Shown here: positions 8,186-21,482 of the stretch, in pieces
Layout: the number at the start of each line of letters is the position of its first letter
Numbering within the stretch: the stretch's first letter is position 1
IMG/VR virus record: IMGVR_UViG_3300031601_000038
Location: 1-22,952 of that record
Source: a virus
Direction: 5' to 3' (one strand)
DNA length: 22,952 bases
Made by a program: the position numbers and the translations under genes
Notes under the pieces: generated by a model
What the model was told of the DNA's origin: nothing
What the model saw: the letters and a program-made list of their open reading frames with translations, nothing else
Database searches by the model: none

Positions 8186-9754
8186 CTATTTAGTTCTTAA
8201 TTCTATACCATTCTGCACAAACCGATTTGATAGCGTGGGATGTGTAATCCCAACCAGCTTTGACACCTTTCTCAAACTCATACCACCAGCGTATAATGTA
8301 ACAGCCTCAGTAAAATCAAACTCTGTCCGATGTCTCTCTGATGCCCGCGCTTGCCAATCAACATCAATATCATAATACTGACAATGCCTTTTCACCGTAG
8401 CACGGTGAACGCCTAATTTCTCAGCAATATGTTCCTGCCCTAAACTCTTATCCGCAAGCAGTTCCCTAATCTTATTCTCAGGGATAGCATACTGTAGCCG
8501 CTCAGTTGCCATGCATTGCTTGTAAAGTTCGTGCTTTCTGTCCAGGTACACAGTGGCACCTTCGTACAAAAGTGATGCTACCTCCTGCGCCATACGCACA
8601 CCGCCAAAAGCAACCCTGAATTTATGTTCTTTCTCTTGCCGCACTGTAGCGTTTGTTTCGATATGATTATGGTGGATAAAATCTAAAAATCCTTGTGGCA
8701 TTTCAGCATTTCCAGCAGTTAGATAAATAGCCCATTGTGGTTTGCCATTGCTTGATGCGATATATGTTCCAATTGTTCCATCTCCGTCTACTACGCCACG
8801 CCAGAAATGGCGCATCAACTCATCAGCAATACCTACCGGAGGCTTCAGGACGAGAGATTTAGCAGGCACAACACCCCACTTAGCCAATGATGCACACATA
8901 TATTTCCTGCCAACCTTCAATGTAGCCGATTCAACAGGCTTGTCAAACGACATCGACTGCCGTCTGACAACTGGGTGATTTGACGATAAAAAATCACGAA
9001 ACTTGCGAACATGTTCAACATCACGATAGGCCAAGCCTAGTGTCAAAATACCATTACACACATTACCGTCAGCATAAATAAACCCCAACCAATATGCTGA
9101 ATCTTCGTCGTTAATTTCATCAAACGCAGTTTTATCACATTTATATCGAATAGGTATACGTTCTGCGCCTACATTCCGCACATATTTCCAACACGTCATT
9201 ACGCTATAACCAGTTGTGGATGCAACTTGCGTGTAACCCATCCCTCCTCGATAAAGTTGCACTATTTCCGCCTTAGCATCTTCAGAAATTGAAGGCTGCT
9301 CAGGCGGCCTTCGTCTTTCTATGCCGCATCTCTTAAGCACGGAAAGCCCTACGCCCTCAGAATAGCCATATTTTCCAGCAGCAACCCTTGCGCTTGCGCC
9401 TCCTTGATACGCCGCAACAATCTTAGTTTCAATGTCACTTGGGCACCGCGAAGGATGCGTATGTACAATTTCAACCCCTGCCGCACGCAAATATTTCCTG
9501 CAAGTGGCAACTTGATAACCTGTTTCTCTGCTGACTTCGACCACACTACCCTTTTCTTTGTACAACTCTATTATCCGCTCACGGTCTTCCACTGGAATGC
9601 CGCGCGACTGAAACTCAAGCCCAACCGCCCTCACGTACTTGTGACATGTTGGCTCACTGTACCCCGTTATTATAGCAACTTCAGGACACGTAAGACCATC
9701 ATTACATAACTGAATCATCTTTTCACGAGACGCCTGCGATACCGGAGAACCCAT
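8186..9754 (-). CDS. Free-standing LAGLIDADG homing endonuclease with HTH arrays
   Basis: A 522-residue protein. The core has two LAGLIDADG motifs, YWLGFIYADGNV (222-232) and FWRGVVDGDGTIG (317-329); each supplies one acidic catalytic residue, and having both in one chain suggests a monomeric enzyme with a long asymmetric DNA site. Around it are repeated HTH units: four before the core (near 12-45, 57-92, 107-143, 160-196, with recurring TGYS..TC.KYVR) and two after (GQEHIAEKLGVHRATVKRH, SLRKVSKLVGITHPTLSNRF). GGAGG lies 7 nt before ATG 9754. It has its own promoter and terminator and no flanking intron or intein signs, so it looks like a mobile gene inserted after the capsid gene. The target site is unknown. 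Confidence 0.9.
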   Translation of the reverse strand: MGSPVSQASREKMIQLCNDGLTCPEVAIITGYSEPTCHKYVRAVGLEFQSRGIPVEDRERIIELYKEKGSVVEVSRETGYQVATCRKYLRAAGVEIVHTHPSRCPSDIETKIVAAYQGGASARVAAGKYGYSEGVGLSVLKRCGIERRRPPEQPSISEDAKAEIVQLYRGGMGYTQVASTTGYSVMTCWKYVRNVGAERIPIRYKCDKTAFDEINDEDSAYWLGFIYADGNVCNGILTLGLAYRDVEHVRKFRDFLSSNHPVVRRQSMSFDKPVESATLKVGRKYMCASLAKWGVVPAKSLVLKPPVGIADELMRHFWRGVVDGDGTIGTYIASSNGKPQWAIYLTAGNAEMPQGFLDFIHHNHIETNATVRQEKEHKFRVAFGGVRMAQEVASLLYEGATVYLDRKHELYKQCMATERLQYAIPENKIRELLADKSLGQEHIAEKLGVHRATVKRHCQYYDIDVDWQARASERHRTEFDFTEAVTLYAGGMSLRKVSKLVGITHPTLSNRFVQNGIELRTK

Positions 9755-9880: not shown

Positions 9881-12409
9881 CTAATCAAATGGCTCTGTAC
9901 CAGTCTCACCCTGCGCAATCTCAAGCAACGCGAAGGCATCACCCTGCAAGCAGGCCATTGCATTCCGAGAACTGACGGACCGCAACAGGCGATTTTCAGC
10001 GGCTTCGCTCTGGAGGGGACTGTAGTATAATGGTATATATGGGGCAAACACGGCTCCGGCGTGCTTCCAGTCGTCTGGTTTGAAGCCGAAGAGCAGAGTA
10101 TTATCCGTAAACCAGCTAGCCAAGTAAACGGTATAGTTTGGAGCGAATGTACCCATCCGTTTAAGGCCGAGGCCAAAACCACTATCTACTGGATTGGCTT
10201 CCGTGGTCCAGTCCTGCTTCATGCTCGCCAACATCCCGACTGCGAGGGTGTCACCGATAATCCAGTTTGCACCCGTATAGACCTTGGCACCAATATCTGC
10301 ACTGGTGCGGTTGACCCACATGGACAGACCTTGATTGTACCATTCACCCTGAGAATTCCAATCGGTTGGCTTGGCTGTGCCATAAGTGTTTGTGGCAGCA
10401 GTTGCGCCAGCCCTCATGGTCTCCAAAAACTGCTCGTTGAGTTCTCTTGCAATTTCATTGACCGCTTCGTTGAGAAGCTCCTGTTGGGCGTCAAGCCCGT
10501 GTTGGGCTTTCAGGTCCTGTATGAGAACCGATGTAATGTTGTAATAGATGGATTTCTCAGTTGCGGTAATGTCCACTGTGTCGAAATCCATTGCAATCTG
10601 ACTTTTCTCTGCGGCTTCTTCGTGATCCGCCCAAGTTGAGTCAAATGCACCAGAATCGTCCATATCCGACCCTGAATTATCTCCGCTAGCATATTCAAAG
10701 TCGAGGTAGTAGATAGTCCCCGTCTTCTGCTTGAGTGGCTGCACGCTCTGAATCTCATAAGGGATGAGTCTCGGAAAAAGCGAACGCACGAGCGGGAGAA
10801 TATAAGGCTGCATGGTGCCAAGCGCAGTGCTCGTGGTGACAGCATCCTGCACGAAGCCCTGTTTCGTGCAGGCGTAGAAATACTGCGGATAAGCATCCCT
10901 ATAGTTGTTGAGGATAGTGTTCATATTGTATGCGGGGTTAGACGGCACTGTCAGCCCCGTATCCTCGATACCCTCCATCAAGTCACGGAATACACCGTCC
11001 ACGGTTTCGGGCCGGTCACGGCCTTCAACACTACCACTAAAGCTAGGCAGCCAGAACTTCTTCTGCTCATCCTGCTTACTAGTGACTCTACCCTGACCAG
11101 CGTATTTATCCTGCGTGGTGAGTGCGCTCAACTTCGGCGTCACTTCGGTGAGAGCTTCGGCGACCTGCTCGATGGTCTCACAACTATCAAAGTGCTTCCG
11201 CATCAGGAAAGCGACATCTTCGTTGCCTTCACTGAGCTTGGCGAGAGCGGTAGCTTTGGCGTCTGCGAGAGCCTGAGCTTTGTTGACAGCCTCGTGGGCA
11301 GCCATAACCTGGTCGGTAATAACACTCTGCGTCTGCGCCAACAGCTTCTCCCCTACCTGCTTGGCGATAGCATCCGTGTCTACCTGATATTCCTTCGGCT
11401 CAACGGCTACTTCAACCACTGCGGCTTCGACCACAGGCGGCGCAACCGGCGTCACAGCCTCCGGCGTCACAGCATCTTCCACAATCTCATCTGCAACTTC
11501 AGTTTTATCAGCCATTATAATGGCCTCCTCTTTCTCTGGTTGTTCGTCTTCATTGTCTTTTGTAAAGCTGACGGTTTGGGTTTGTGCCGCACCTCTGTCA
11601 ACCACATCGCATCCATCCCAGACATAGTTGCGGATTTCATTGTACTCCTTACCGTCGGAACTATCATCTGCTTTTATAACTTTACTGTCACCATAACCGA
11701 TTATAGACCATTCCGTCTGTACGCCGTGTTCCCACAAGGTTTGTATGTCTTTCCCTGCGCTAGTCGGAAGGATTGCTCCCTCAAGATAGACATTACCCTT
11801 TTGGATAAACACAGCATCATAACGTACACATATATTACTAGGATTGCCACCAGAGAAAAATCCTGGGTGTCCGTCTTGTCCGGTAAATCGTCCAGCCTTC
11901 ATCATGCGATTTACACGCGACAGGTTATCCTCGAATTCTTTGCGCGGATAAAACCGTCTGTTCTTGTTGATTTTATCGGACTGTGCGACAATTGCGCGAA
12001 ACCTCATCGAACCATCACTAGGCGTCTCTTCGAGGTCTTCGACAATTTCAGCCCTGCCAATGAATGTATCCTCGATGCGTTCCCTACCGTCACTCTTCAT
12101 TTCATCAACGCGAGCTTCCGCAAGCGTGAGTAGGGATACATCATCGCTTTCCAAAATCTGAAAAAGGACATCTTCTGCTTCTGCGACATCAGTAGTGTTA
12201 GCGATAGCTTCGGCGACTACTGCTTCATTATCAACGCTATCGGTTTTGCGCTGCATCTTTGCACCGCACTTAGCACACTTCATAGCTGTACAAGGAACAC
12301 CAGTATCATGTTCCTTTTCATAGCCGCATTCTGGACAAACACAAATCCCGCCGTTGCCAGCACCTGGATTTGGCGAAGCGGCTTCATCTACGTTTTCAGC
12401 ATCTGGCAT
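9881..12409 (-). CDS. Prohead protease - scaffold - major capsid protein fusion
   Basis: An 842-residue protein with four parts. Residues 24-52 hold a zinc ribbon (CVCPEC ... CAKCGAKM). Residues 115-285 look like a T4 gp21-type prohead protease: [19 protein letters not shown], then [11 protein letters not shown] with His181 and TEWSIIGYG with Ser235 as the likely catalytic pair. Residues 300-450 are Ala, Val and Glu-rich, coiled-coil-like and scaffold-like. From about 460 a HK97-fold capsid protein follows ([51 protein letters not shown]). It is expected to cleave itself into parts during maturation. Its promoter, structured leader and strong terminator make it a self-contained unit. An internal Shine-Dalgarno and ATG at residue 299 could also give scaffold-capsid alone. 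Confidence 0.85.
11513..11529 (-). promoter_or_regulatory. Internal ribosome binding site and ATG inside the protease-capsid gene
   Basis: AGGAGG (11529-11524) lies 8 nt before an in-frame ATG (11515-11513; residue 299, [14 protein letters not shown]), exactly where the protease domain ends and the scaffold begins. Initiation here would give a 544-residue scaffold-capsid protein without protease, so capsid subunits could exceed protease copies. Confidence 0.65.
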
Positions 12410-12506
12410 AAAGTGTCTCCCCTTACGTTTGAGGTTCCTGTTTCAGCAGACCTAACATCCGTATCGGTCCTCCGCAGGCTTAGATTCGGGTGAACACCAC
12501 CCTATC
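12410..12506 (-). ncRNA. Structured leader RNA module, copy 1 (capsid gene 5' UTR)
   Basis: About 97 nt directly before the capsid fusion ATG match a plus-strand module at 20937-21034 at about three quarters of positions by hand alignment. Visible elements are: hairpin 1, GGGTGG/TCACCC with loop TGT; an outer CCTG/CAGG pairing around hairpin 2, GGACC/GGTCT; then CCTC/GGGG, whose 3' arm belongs to the Shine-Dalgarno. Between the copies, hairpin 1 changes C-G to U-A and A-U to G-C, and hairpin 2 changes A-U to G-C and U-A to C-G, so pairing is kept. The block GAAACAGGAACCTCAA is unchanged. A role in translation control of the capsid gene is inferred. The family is not identified with certainty. 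Confidence 0.7.
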
Positions 12507-12553: not shown

Positions 12554-14275
12554 TTACAAAACAGTGGCAACACTCCATCCATCTGCACCACGGTTGTATT
12601 CTTTTGACCATATCCAGTATGTATCTGTGTCAAAACTATCACATAATGGAATCATTGTCAAGGGGTTGTCCTCACTTTTGTAAAGAATTTTTCGCAATTC
12701 TTCCCGCCTCTCCTCCATCGGCAATGAAGTTATGTCTTCTCCGTCGAGATATGCGATGTCATAACAGTGTGCAATTGTTGGTATATCCATCAGATTATCA
12801 CTAAGCATGTGTGCGCCAGGCATTGGTTCCCCATCTTTTTCTGCGGAGATTACACACTCTATAATGCAAGGCATTTCTAACTGTGCAACTGCCTCGCAAA
12901 TGCTTGGGAATTCATGCGCTCGATTGCGCCCTCCATTACCGATGAATATAGATGTGTTGTGTTTTCCTCGATGTATTTGTGCGTCTACTCCCTCTGGTAT
13001 TGCGCAAACAACATTGTCTTCTAGTGCTGACAGAACATCTTCTTCCGATTCCCATGTTACGCTATCAGATATTTCTGTGGGCGGCAGCGGCTGCCCTATT
13101 CTGATAGCTTCAGTATAGAGGAACCAGAATGGCCTAATCATATCATCAAGTATTTCACTCTCGTATCTTACTAAATGGTGTCCATGCAAATACCTCAAGC
13201 CATCAGCCAAGTCAATAGTAGTTTGCGGTAGCACTGCGAGGCCATCAGGAAAAGCAATATTGCCGATGGTTTCCAATCTGTCTTTCAGCAGCGTATTCTT
13301 GCAATTGCGGTCATTTATTTGCAGCACATCAAAAATCTGCATTACTTCATCAGCCCAGATAGCGAGAAAAATTGCGCTCTGCGGCTCCTCCATTTCTGCC
13401 AATACATCAACTGCATCAATAAATTCGGTTTCCCGTTCCCCGTCCTGATTGTAGATGACAATGTTGTCTTCTGTTTTGTGTATCTGATAGATTGCATAGT
13501 CTTTGGGAATTGGTTGTGCAATAACAGGGAATTTATAGGCACCCTGCTTGCGAAAATAACCGATTGGAATGTGTTCACCTATGGTCATATCGGTTTGTGG
13601 ATACTCTACACAAGGCTGGTCTTTGCGAATCAGCCACAACTCATAAGCGGGTATCCGTGAGCGACCCTCAATATCATCGCTCCCAATGATGTTGAAATCT
13701 ATGTCTGCGTCTTCCAAAGCTGCTATAGCATCAGGGTGCTTTGCAACAATTGCAGCAATACCATCATCCTCGTACAATATGCTGCCAGTAATTGATGCAG
13801 CCTCATCTGACAACTGAATAACTGCGGGCAATTCATCCCACACAGGATTATGTGCTTCGTTCTTGTCCCAATCCTCTGTGCTAATGTGTGGCTGTCCAAC
13901 TAGTGCCAATAGTCTTGCAGCAAATTTGTGCAATTCTTCAGATTTCAATTCATGGGCGGCGTCATGCACCTTCAACGCTTCAGAAAGCGAAGGCAGCAAT
14001 GACGTTGCAGCATCCTTCGTGCCTGCGTGGAATTCTCCATTGTGGCTGGCGCAATGAGCATTGGCCTGCTTTGTGCCCTCGGCATTTCCCCAGCCATTGC
14101 TGAAACGATAGCGTATTGAGACGGGCTTGCTCTTGTCCTTCCACCAACAGACCACGCGCTCAATTGGTTTATCGTTCACCTTTCCGCTTTTTACGGTAGC
14201 GCAGCGGTCACTTCCAGAAGAACTTGCGATACGGCAAGTGTGCATTCCAGCGAGGGGATCGCTTACTTTTCTCAT
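12554..14275 (-). CDS. Protein with two tandem degenerate ATP-dependent DNA ligase-like domains
   Basis: A 573-residue protein between portal and capsid genes. Residues 1-90 are Cys/His-rich (HTCRI, VVCWW, NAHCASHNGEFHAG). Residues 250-340 and 415-532 each follow the adenylation core of ATP-dependent ligases: DYAIYQIHKTEDNIVIYNQDGE ... EFIDAVDVLAEM ... MQIFDVLQINDRN, and GVDAQIHRGKHNTSIFIGN ... EFPSICEAVAQL ... AHCYDIAYLDGEDITSLPMEE. The second has the very typical motif IIIa followed by EERREELRKIL. Where ligases have KxDGxR, these read PKDYAI and IPEGVD, so the AMP-accepting lysine is missing in both, and the DGE motif is lost. Motifs IV and V are not visible. An inactive, structural or binding role is inferred. 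ATGA overlap with the portal gene and GGAGG 9 nt upstream support the start. Confidence 0.7.
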   Translation of the reverse strand: MRKVSDPLAGMHTCRIASSSGSDRCATVKSGKVNDKPIERVVCWWKDKSKPVSIRYRFSNGWGNAEGTKQANAHCASHNGEFHAGTKDAATSLLPSLSEALKVHDAAHELKSEELHKFAARLLALVGQPHISTEDWDKNEAHNPVWDELPAVIQLSDEAASITGSILYEDDGIAAIVAKHPDAIAALEDADIDFNIIGSDDIEGRSRIPAYELWLIRKDQPCVEYPQTDMTIGEHIPIGYFRKQGAYKFPVIAQPIPKDYAIYQIHKTEDNIVIYNQDGERETEFIDAVDVLAEMEEPQSAIFLAIWADEVMQIFDVLQINDRNCKNTLLKDRLETIGNIAFPDGLAVLPQTTIDLADGLRYLHGHHLVRYESEILDDMIRPFWFLYTEAIRIGQPLPPTEISDSVTWESEEDVLSALEDNVVCAIPEGVDAQIHRGKHNTSIFIGNGGRNRAHEFPSICEAVAQLEMPCIIECVISAEKDGEPMPGAHMLSDNLMDIPTIAHCYDIAYLDGEDITSLPMEERREELRKILYKSEDNPLTMIPLCDSFDTDTYWIWSKEYNRGADGWSVATVL

Positions 14276-20630: not shown

Positions 20631-20719
20631 GATAGCATTATACCACCGCCGCCCCGTCGTGTCAATAGGAAAAACGAAAAAACCTGCTCCGAAGAACAGG
20701 ACTTTTCCGCAAAGGCCAT
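20627..20719 (-). CDS. 30-residue leader peptide across a terminator hairpin
   Basis: ATG 20719 has GAAGG 6 nt upstream (and GGAGG further up). The frame (MAFAEKSCSSEQVFSFFLL, ending GGGGIMLS) runs through an intrinsic terminator and ends with TGA overlapping the GTG of the membrane protein. Ribosomes on it would disrupt the terminator hairpin, as in attenuators. It is short and has no homologue known to me, so the layout is the only evidence. Confidence 0.45.
   Translation of the reverse strand: MAFAEKSCSSEQVFSFFLLTRRGGGGIMLS
20637..20665 (-). promoter_or_regulatory. Consensus promoter immediately before the membrane protein gene
   Basis: TTGACA (20665-20660) and TATAAT (20642-20637) with a 17-bp spacer match consensus perfectly. 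The GTG start lies 7 bp past the -10, at the expected transcription start. Confidence 0.88.
20677..20700 (-). terminator. Intrinsic terminator between two leftward promoters
   Basis: CCTGTTC/GAGCAGG, a 7-bp stem with a UUCG loop and one G-U pair, is followed by six T. It lies about 50-75 nt into the transcript from the upstream promoter and inside the 30-codon leader frame. Confidence 0.88.
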
Positions 20720-20756: not shown

Positions 20757-20785
20757 AGTATAGCATATATTGCGCCCCGTGTCAA
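20757..20785 (-). promoter_or_regulatory. Leftward near-consensus promoter of the divergent pair
   Basis: TTGACA (20785-20780) and TATACT (20762-20757) have a 17-bp spacer. The -35 boxes of this promoter and the rightward one are only 9 bp apart, so a protein bound between them would affect both. Confidence 0.85.
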
Positions 20786-20794
20786 ACTTTTTTC

Positions 20795-20823
20795 TTGACA
20801 AGCATCTGCGGATGTGCTATTAT
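20795..20823 (+). promoter_or_regulatory. Rightward near-consensus promoter of the divergent pair
   Basis: TTGACA (20795-20800) and TATTAT (20818-20823) have a 17-bp spacer. The predicted start near 20830 would place the structured RNA at the very 5' end of the transcript. Confidence 0.85.
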
Positions 20824-20829
20824 GATGTC

Positions 20830-21034
20830 ACGGGGTATGAAGCTGGCGCCTTTCCAACCTATTAGCCACCCGCAATAGTCCTTGACGGTGAGCGGCGATG
20901 AACGTCCGGTGGTAAAGACGCGGATGCCTTTTCAATGATAGGGCAGTGTCTGCCCGAATCCAAAGCCTGTGGAGAATCGAGAAAGACGTTAGATTCGTCG
21001 AAACAGGAACCTCAAGCGCAGAGGAGACACCATT
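20830..21034 (+). ncRNA. Structured RNA: HEARO/omega RNA-like 5' part plus leader module copy 2
   Basis: About 205 nt without a convincing gene. The 3' half (20937-21034) matches the capsid leader: hairpin GGGCAG/CTGCCC with loop TGT (20941-20955), outer CCTGT/ACAGG pairing, hairpin GAATC/GATTC (20974-20996), and CCTC/GAGG, whose 3' arm is part of the Shine-Dalgarno. The 5' half has CTATT/AATAG (20859-20878) just after UUUCCAAC, CCACC/GGTGG (20866-20870 with 20908-20912), and GACG/CGTC. UUCCAAC before a hairpin and GCGGAUGCC (20920-20928) resemble what I recall of IscB omega RNA (HEARO). No IscB gene follows. It could instead be a leader regulating the small downstream genes. Confidence 0.6.
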
Positions 21035-21103
21035 ATGCCCAAACAACACAAGGAGGTCTTCCGTTATGGAAGCCAACGAAGAGATGCTTCTGCAGTTGAT
21101 TGA
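21035..21103 (+). CDS. 22-codon upstream frame at the end of the structured RNA
   Basis: ATG 21035 occupies the same place after the RNA module as the capsid ATG does in the other copy, with GGAG 8 nt upstream. It encodes MPKQHKEVFRYGSQRRDASA plus two residues and overlaps the start of the 138-residue gene in another frame. It may be a regulatory uORF or a leftover gene start. Confidence 0.35.
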   Translation: MPKQHKEVFRYGSQRRDASAVD

Positions 21104-21482
21104 CTGGATGAATAAGACAGTCGGCCCCAACTCATTCACCTATGAAGGGTTTGACATACCTGGGGGATGGTGTCGCGCACAGTGTAAGCTATGGACGTTC
21201 ACGAACTGCTATTCCATAGTGGGTGTGTGCAAAGACGGAGCAGCACCACACTACCTTGGCTGTACAGCCACATCCCGCAAGCCCCGTGCTGGTGAGGATT
21301 GGACGCGTGGCAACGACCTGCCCGACGGCCCATTCTGCCAAGAGACATTTGACGCGATAGTGCGGGCGATAGTCAAGTACGAGGCAGTGCGGGTAGCTGG
21401 AACGGTGTCGGATGTTCGTATTGAATCCCGCGCACTAACTGCCGATGAGATTCAGCAGTCTTACGAAGCAGCCGACAAGTAG
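21066..21482 (+). CDS. Hypothetical phage protein
   Basis: 138 residues: an N-terminal helix (EEMLLQLIDWMNKTVG), a central Cys/Trp-containing part (GGWCRAQCKLWTFTNCYS), then a conserved-looking RKPRAGEDWTRGNDLPDGPF and the helix CQETFDAIVRAIVKYEAVR. ATG 21066 is chosen because AAGGAGG lies 9 nt upstream. The open frame extends further up to 20946, but that part is the structured RNA. The product is probably soluble, and I do not know its function. It is the first sizeable gene of the rightward island, ahead of the tRNA. Confidence 0.7.
   Translation: MEANEEMLLQLIDWMNKTVGPNSFTYEGFDIPGGWCRAQCKLWTFTNCYSIVGVCKDGAAPHYLGCTATSRKPRAGEDWTRGNDLPDGPFCQETFDAIVRAIVKYEAVRVAGTVSDVRIESRALTADEIQQSYEAADK

Follow-up and report, generated by a model that had tools for sequence, protein, structure and literature searches.

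Two copies of a TnpB-type guide-RNA-like scaffold in a phage genome, one of them immediately upstream of the major capsid gene

Introduction

TnpB is the transposon ancestor of CRISPR-Cas12, and its RNAs are known as guides encoded together with their nuclease, in which the guide lies 3' of the scaffold. The phage record IMGVR_UViG_3300031601_000038 of IMG/VR, of which we examined positions 1-22,952 (hereafter the window), contains a 205-nt stretch behind a promoter that a first-pass annotation described as a possible orphan transposon-type guide-RNA scaffold without a nuclease, possibly acting as a leader, and tentatively assigned to the HEARO/IscB omega RNAs. Which family does this RNA belong to, and what use could a phage make of it? 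The description as an orphan scaffold, with a possible role as a leader, was supported by the analysis reported here; the family is most probably TnpB-type (RAGATH-18/reRNA-like) and not IscB/HEARO.

Results

Two copies of the module keep the same fold

The window contains the module twice, downstream of the promoter (copy 1) and, on the opposite strand, in the leader of the major capsid gene (copy 2). Coordinates of both copies and of the neighboring features are shown in Table 1. The copies were found independently as an inverted repeat (20963-21039 against 12405-12481), and blastn, measured on the same capsid leader in sister contig L040, gave 76% identity over 104 nt with an E value of 6e-10; the module is thus common to the capsid leader, as the first-pass annotation had claimed. 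The same annotation regarded the capsid copy as a reduced derivative, and the comparison shows an equivalent copy. Homology between the copies is limited by the P1 hairpin on the 5' side and by the boundary between scaffold and guide on the 3' side. Outside the scaffold they have nothing in common, and the repeat search shows no shared left end of the kind that a non-autonomous IS200/IS605 or IS607 element would have.

Table 1. Features of the window related to the two copies of the module.
Feature	Position	Strand	Basis
Copy 1, TnpB-type guide-RNA-like scaffold, ~97 nt	20938..21034	+	RAGATH-18 match 20966-21009; pattern relatives at tnpB 3' ends; fold kept relative to copy 2
Copy 1 P1 hairpin, GGGCAG-TGT-CTGCCC	20941..20955	+	Two double compensatory changes relative to copy 2
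Copy 1 kink-turn hairpin, CCTGTGGAG...GAAACAGG, RAGATH-18 core	20966..21007	+	cmscan alignment; two double compensatory changes in the inner stem
Copy 1 P3 hairpin CCTC/GAGG, GGAG tail (Shine-Dalgarno-like, 21021-21026), pseudoknot strand AGACAC	21010..21030	+	Sequence, pair table, pseudoknot search
Copy 2, leader of the major capsid gene	12410..12505	-	Inverted repeat, structural alignment
Copy 2 P1 hairpin, GGGTGG-TGT-TCACCC	12488..12502	-	Structural alignment of the copies
Copy 2 kink-turn hairpin, CCTGCGGAG...GAAACAGG	12437..12478	-	
Copy 2 P3 hairpin CCTC/GGGG, GGGGAG Shine-Dalgarno (12422-12417), pseudoknot strand GACAC	12413..12434	-	
Sigma70-type promoter, TTGACA-17-TATTAT	20795..20823	+	11/12 in consensus scan
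Predicted transcribed leader 5' of copy 1, the earlier "HEARO-like" part	20830..20937	+	No excess folding, no Rfam match
22-codon ORF directly 3' of copy 1	21035..21103	+	Read from sequence
138-aa protein gene, own AAGGAGG (Shine-Dalgarno, 21050-21056)	21066..21482	+	
Major capsid protein, T4 gp23-like	9881..12409	-	Pfam PF07068, E 2e-34

The structural alignment of the two copies comprises 18 pairs: six in P1, four in the outer and four in the inner stem of the kink-turn hairpin, and four in P3. Despite 23 differences over 99 aligned positions, the copies keep every stem pair (18/18). Substitutions affect 10 of the 36 paired positions: in four pairs both partners changed, in two only one, and the chance of keeping all 18 pairs is P ~1e-5 for random substitutions and 0.012 if only transitions are considered. 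The RNA of copy 2 is more stable than its shuffles (z = -2.1); the 205-nt RNA at copy 1, taken whole, is not. In copy 1 the P1 loop (GTGTCT, 20946-20951) is complementary to the AGACAC of the tail (21025-21030), and copy 2 shows a weaker 6-nt pairing which includes G-U pairs (GGTGTT/GACACT); the P1-loop x tail pseudoknot was borderline in a permutation test over eight RNAs (p ~0.05). The module is a real structured RNA, which would be kept under selection for its fold.

The module resembles the guide RNAs encoded at tnpB 3' ends

The best Rfam match of copy 1 was RAGATH-18 (RF03064), with E values of 3e-4 on a 301-nt stretch and 0.023 on the whole window and a score of 31.2 bits, under the gathering threshold of 44.9 bits. 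RNAs of bona fide tnpB loci in L009 also score just 35-38.7 bits, and copy 2 was not found by the RAGATH-18 model. The kink-turn residues of the family, GGAG and GAA within CCUG...CAGG, are present in the module. RAGATH-18 is the scaffold core of the reRNA guide RNAs of IS607 TnpB; 64% of RAGATH-18 RNAs adjoin an IS607 tnpB and about a third, unexplained, lie elsewhere (PMC11061315). With these reRNAs (RF03064; PMC11061315) the window module shares the kink-turn core (CCUGNGGAG...GAAACAGGAA), a 3' flank ahead of the guide position and a 5' hairpin loop that may pair with this flank, the counterpart of which in the ISFba1 reRNA is PK2 (PMC11061315). It differs from them in its score below gathering, in a hairpin of ~44-46 nt instead of 71-73 nt, in one short 3' hairpin instead of two, in the lack of an adjoining tnpB and in its placement in message leaders. 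Compact hairpins of 41-46 nt are also found in the bona fide tnpB loci L009 and L015, and the TnpB of L015 shows the same hairpin length and reading frame as the window.

A pattern built from the two window copies, CCTGNGGAG-N16..46-GAAACAGGAACC, was found in 39 viral (phage) loci. An upstream frame with a TnpB zinc-ribbon signature is present in 29 of the 39, and 28 of these frames end at or overlap the module; in L003 the nearest zinc-ribbon frame stops ~1 kb before the module. Two further loci, L009 and L015, are located within or at tnpB frames, and L001, L005, L024 and L037 have no tnpB beside the module. L022 is a cut-off duplicate of a tnpB-type locus, L011 is the sister contig of the window, and the match in L023, located in coding sequence, looks like chance. 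The RNA core overlaps the last tnpB codons, which typically read NACG(G)...KQEP, and in both window copies the module can still be read as ACG...KQEP, the reading of many TnpB C-termini. Among plasmids, the module best matched the 3' end of an annotated haloarchaeal transposase gene (E 7e-3). Stricter patterns run on IMG/VR gave only the sister contig, or nothing, or the sister contig together with L097 and L098, which are unrelated-looking matches in coding sequence.

As the search pattern was drawn from the window copies, part of the core identity among the relatives it collected is built in; no such circularity affects the Rfam match, the location at tnpB ends, the reading frame or the plasmid match. 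The module probably descends from an overlapping tnpB 3' end and now stands without the tnpB gene, and we consider it likely to be a TnpB guide-RNA-type scaffold. It shares the core, the ACG...KQEP frame and the GGAG tail with the TnpB omega RNAs at tnpB 3' ends of actinobacterial and other phages, but it lacks a tnpB, and the guide position is occupied by a start codon and coding sequence.

The HEARO model (RF02033), with which the first-pass annotation proposed to search, gave no match at the gathering score, none on the 301-nt stretch at E<=5, and none in the window or in the whole record, the latter search being run without a positive control. The annotation was right that no IscB gene lies in the window, where 0 of 10 proteins tested showed RuvC or HNH. 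It expected relatives beside iscB genes; the pattern relatives adjoin tnpB and none adjoins iscB, which together with the lack of a HEARO match refutes that assignment on the annotation's own terms.

As a separate observation, a 564-aa TnpB frame in L068:1539-3233 (G006) holds two guide-RNA-like modules: the first is internal (~2139) and the second lies at the end of the frame (3045), which looks like an in-frame insertion or duplication of a scaffold.

Copy 1 lies behind a near-consensus promoter and before a short ORF

The promoter upstream of copy 1 is near-consensus, as first annotated, and it is kept in L072, a syntenic relative in which the gene behind this promoter is unrelated and has an ordinary leader. 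On account of its agreement with the consensus and this conservation, a transcript start near 20830 is likely. This places the predicted start ~108 nt upstream of the unit 20938-21034, and not 15-20 nt before the scaffold as previously supposed. On the opposite strand, two near-perfect sigma70 promoters (12/12 and 11/12; 20637-20665 and 20757-20785) diverge from the promoter of copy 1.

The two strings TTTCCAAC and GCGGATGCC, reported in the stretch 5' of the module, are present in the sequence. This part of the RNA (20830-20936) folds no better than its shuffles (z = +0.78), and the 108-nt stretch (20830-20937) has no homologue among the other loci compared. Positions 20828-20850, proposed earlier as a guide, have no significant match in phages or plasmids, and they are not where a guide is expected, because the guide of a TnpB RNA follows the scaffold at its 3' end.

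An ORF start was described just 3' of the module. There is indeed an ATG at 21035, which opens an ORF of just 22 codons. The 138-aa gene begins only at 21066, does not adjoin copy 1 and has its own Shine-Dalgarno sequence, 27 nt further. Its protein showed no Pfam match. Homologues of this gene in other, often large, phages have no module upstream, and a tie between the module and this gene family was therefore rejected.

Copy 2 provides the Shine-Dalgarno sequence of the capsid gene

The tail of copy 2, GGGGAG, is the Shine-Dalgarno sequence of the capsid gene; the capsid start lies 8 nt further, and the tail runs into the ATG at 12409. No sigma70-type promoter was found upstream of copy 2 in the scan. 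L041 and L072 show no module at the capsid start, and their ATG follows the stop codon of the gene before it by only a few bases, so that either the lineage leading to the window and L040 gained copy 2 or L041 and L072 lost it. Broader searches with capsid, terminase and portal gave four relatives only.

Other features of this region were observed. The N-terminal half of the capsid protein has a weak match to the S77 prohead protease (PF03420, E 2e-4, below cut-off) and the protein is possibly a protease-capsid fusion. Right after the capsid gene, the 522-aa product of 8186-9754 (-) contains several HTH repeats and, by motif reading, a LAGLIDADG-like homing endonuclease region (e.g. YWLGFIYADG). 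Its gene is preceded by its own promoter-like sequence and a terminator-like stretch, and L040 and L072 have little or nothing there. Between portal and capsid, 12554-14275 (-) encodes a 573-aa protein with a match to the ATP-dependent DNA ligase domain (PF01068, E 1e-6).

A solo module is also found in korA leaders of bacteria

Scanned with the pattern, bacterial genomes yielded a single locus. It belongs to Melghirimyces profundicolus and lies in the leader of a gene for a 2-oxoacid oxidoreductase, korA-like by reading of the protein. This korA copy has no Rfam match. The same fold, with no adjoining tnpB, is conserved in the korA leaders of L085 and, with some divergence, of L086, L087 and L093 (Thermoactinomycetaceae); L089 shows a diverged, looser form and the fold is missing in L091. 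A GACGC/GCGTC pseudoknot is proposed for the RNAs of L085-L087. Since the fold is common to several Thermoactinomycetaceae, the solo scaffold persists vertically in bacteria too. The Melghirimyces TnpB was rejected as the partner of its korA module: it is located on another contig and has another scaffold.

Partner proteins and guide targets

A six-frame search with PF07282 gave no tnpB over cut-off beside the module or in G000-G003 (the window, the sister contig and two short relatives), and no TnpB with the window scaffold was found in the window, G001, G002, G003 or G023, a 70-kb relative of the window phage. G023 encodes two TnpBs, which were rejected as partners: the RNAs adjoining them represent another scaffold, without the kink-turn core. 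These two proteins (L079:11233-12339 and L081:6851-7972) are similar (368 and 373 aa) and have short omega RNAs; upstream of the first lies one more short copy of this omega RNA type.

If copy 1 is a TnpB guide RNA, its putative guide is the first ~20 nt of the 22-codon ORF; the guide region 21030-21064 has no significant match in phages or plasmids. The putative guide of copy 2 is capsid coding sequence. Target searches in the sister and relative contigs gave nothing beyond 11-nt chance matches. A solo TnpB-type module, near a tRNA-like sequence, was also found in a 204-kb jumbo phage (L005/G005; IMGVR_UViG_3300028845_000223, 33588-37704), whose sole detected TnpB (zinc ribbon, 121.6 kb) lies 87 kb from the module. 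This case is only suggestive, because that TnpB may well have its own RNA.

Discussion

The most likely use of the two copies is that of a structured 5'-leader element. Most weight is given to it because the fold is kept, both copies are so placed that they would form the 5' part of messages, and the tail of the capsid copy is the ribosome binding site. A compact scaffold, formed by P1, a linker, the kink-turn hairpin, P3 and the GGAG tail, would derive from a tnpB 3' end whose gene has since been lost from its side, and each copy would form the transcribed 5' leader of a phage message. In the capsid message the conserved GGAG tail of the scaffold would serve as the Shine-Dalgarno sequence, enclosed between P3 and the possible P1-loop x tail pseudoknot, and the fold itself, or a bound protein of the TnpB family, may control ribosome access or processing of the message. 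We give this explanation, taken whole and for both copies, a probability of roughly 45%. Control of the ribosome binding site fits copy 2 better than copy 1, since copy 1 is not adjacent to a real gene start and the gene downstream has its own Shine-Dalgarno sequence 27 nt further. The broader proposal, that a nuclease-less TnpB scaffold has been domesticated as a 5'-leader regulator in the capsid message, with its GGAG tail as ribosome binding site, and independently in the korA leaders of Thermoactinomycetaceae, is tentative and on balance somewhat doubtful.

A rather doubtful alternative, although the best placed of those considered, is that the copies are solo guides acting in trans. A TnpB, or a nuclease-dead TldR, supplied by the host or encoded in phage sequence outside the available part, would bind the scaffolds and trim them out of messages, and the ~20 nt behind them would then guide either homing of the allele that bears the module or regulation. 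The homology between the copies, which stops at the P1 hairpin and at the scaffold/guide boundary, is what such guides would show. The jumbo phage with its distant TnpB, the two TnpBs of G023 and the third or so of RAGATH-18 RNAs that are not beside an IS607 tnpB (PMC11061315) point the same way, and nuclease-dead TnpB homologues with guide RNAs are known from phages (PMC13418256). The guide RNAs of these TldRs are, like the window module, phage-borne, of TnpB origin and located beside non-transposon genes (PMC13418256); the window differs in that no tldR gene and no target were found. Against guides in trans, neither a TnpB with the window scaffold nor a target was found in the sequences listed above, a result that covers an incomplete phage genome and does not extend to the host, and the guide of copy 2 would be capsid coding sequence.

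It is unlikely that the copies are decayed right ends of tnpB elements, functionless and located before genes by chance. The lack of tnpB and of a target agrees with such leftovers, as does the presence/absence polymorphism at the capsid start, where L041 and L072 have no module. Against decay stand the conservation of every stem pair (18 of 18), four of them through double compensatory changes, at 23% divergence, and the persistence of a similar solo module at korA across several bacterial species.

An unrelated riboswitch-like kink-turn leader RNA that converged on the RAGATH-18 motif would suit the position before genes, including the korA leaders of Thermoactinomycetaceae. The shared order of P1, linker, kink turn, P3 and GGAG, the TnpB reading frame and the best database matches at tnpB ends make this convergence improbable.

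Solitary CRISPR repeats act as decoys for Cas proteins, and the module could similarly mimic a scaffold and sequester a TnpB-like nuclease of the host. A scaffold without a cognate nuclease and the near-consensus promoter of copy 1 would suit a decoy; placement in the leaders of coding messages is not needed for it, and no anti-phage role of a TnpB with the window scaffold is known in the host, which leaves a decoy quite improbable.

A HEARO/IscB omega RNA (RF02033), also a transposon guide RNA and sharing two short strings with the locus, is extremely improbable: the module has neither a covariance-model match nor an iscB, the part bearing the strings folds no better than shuffles, the relatives lie at tnpB, and the guide would be on the opposite side.

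Solo RAGATH-18 RNAs were already known. As far as we found, their placement in a leader, with the tail as ribosome binding site, has not been described, and a literature search on stand-alone omega RNAs gave nothing directly on point. The two nuclease-less copies suggest either the re-use of a guide-RNA scaffold as a leader or its service by a nuclease from elsewhere, and they provide a concrete sequence pair with which use as a leader and use as a guide in trans can be tested against each other. If a nuclease-less copy is indeed selected for its fold in the leader of a capsid gene, TnpB scaffolds would have a second life, as leader regulators or as guides in trans.
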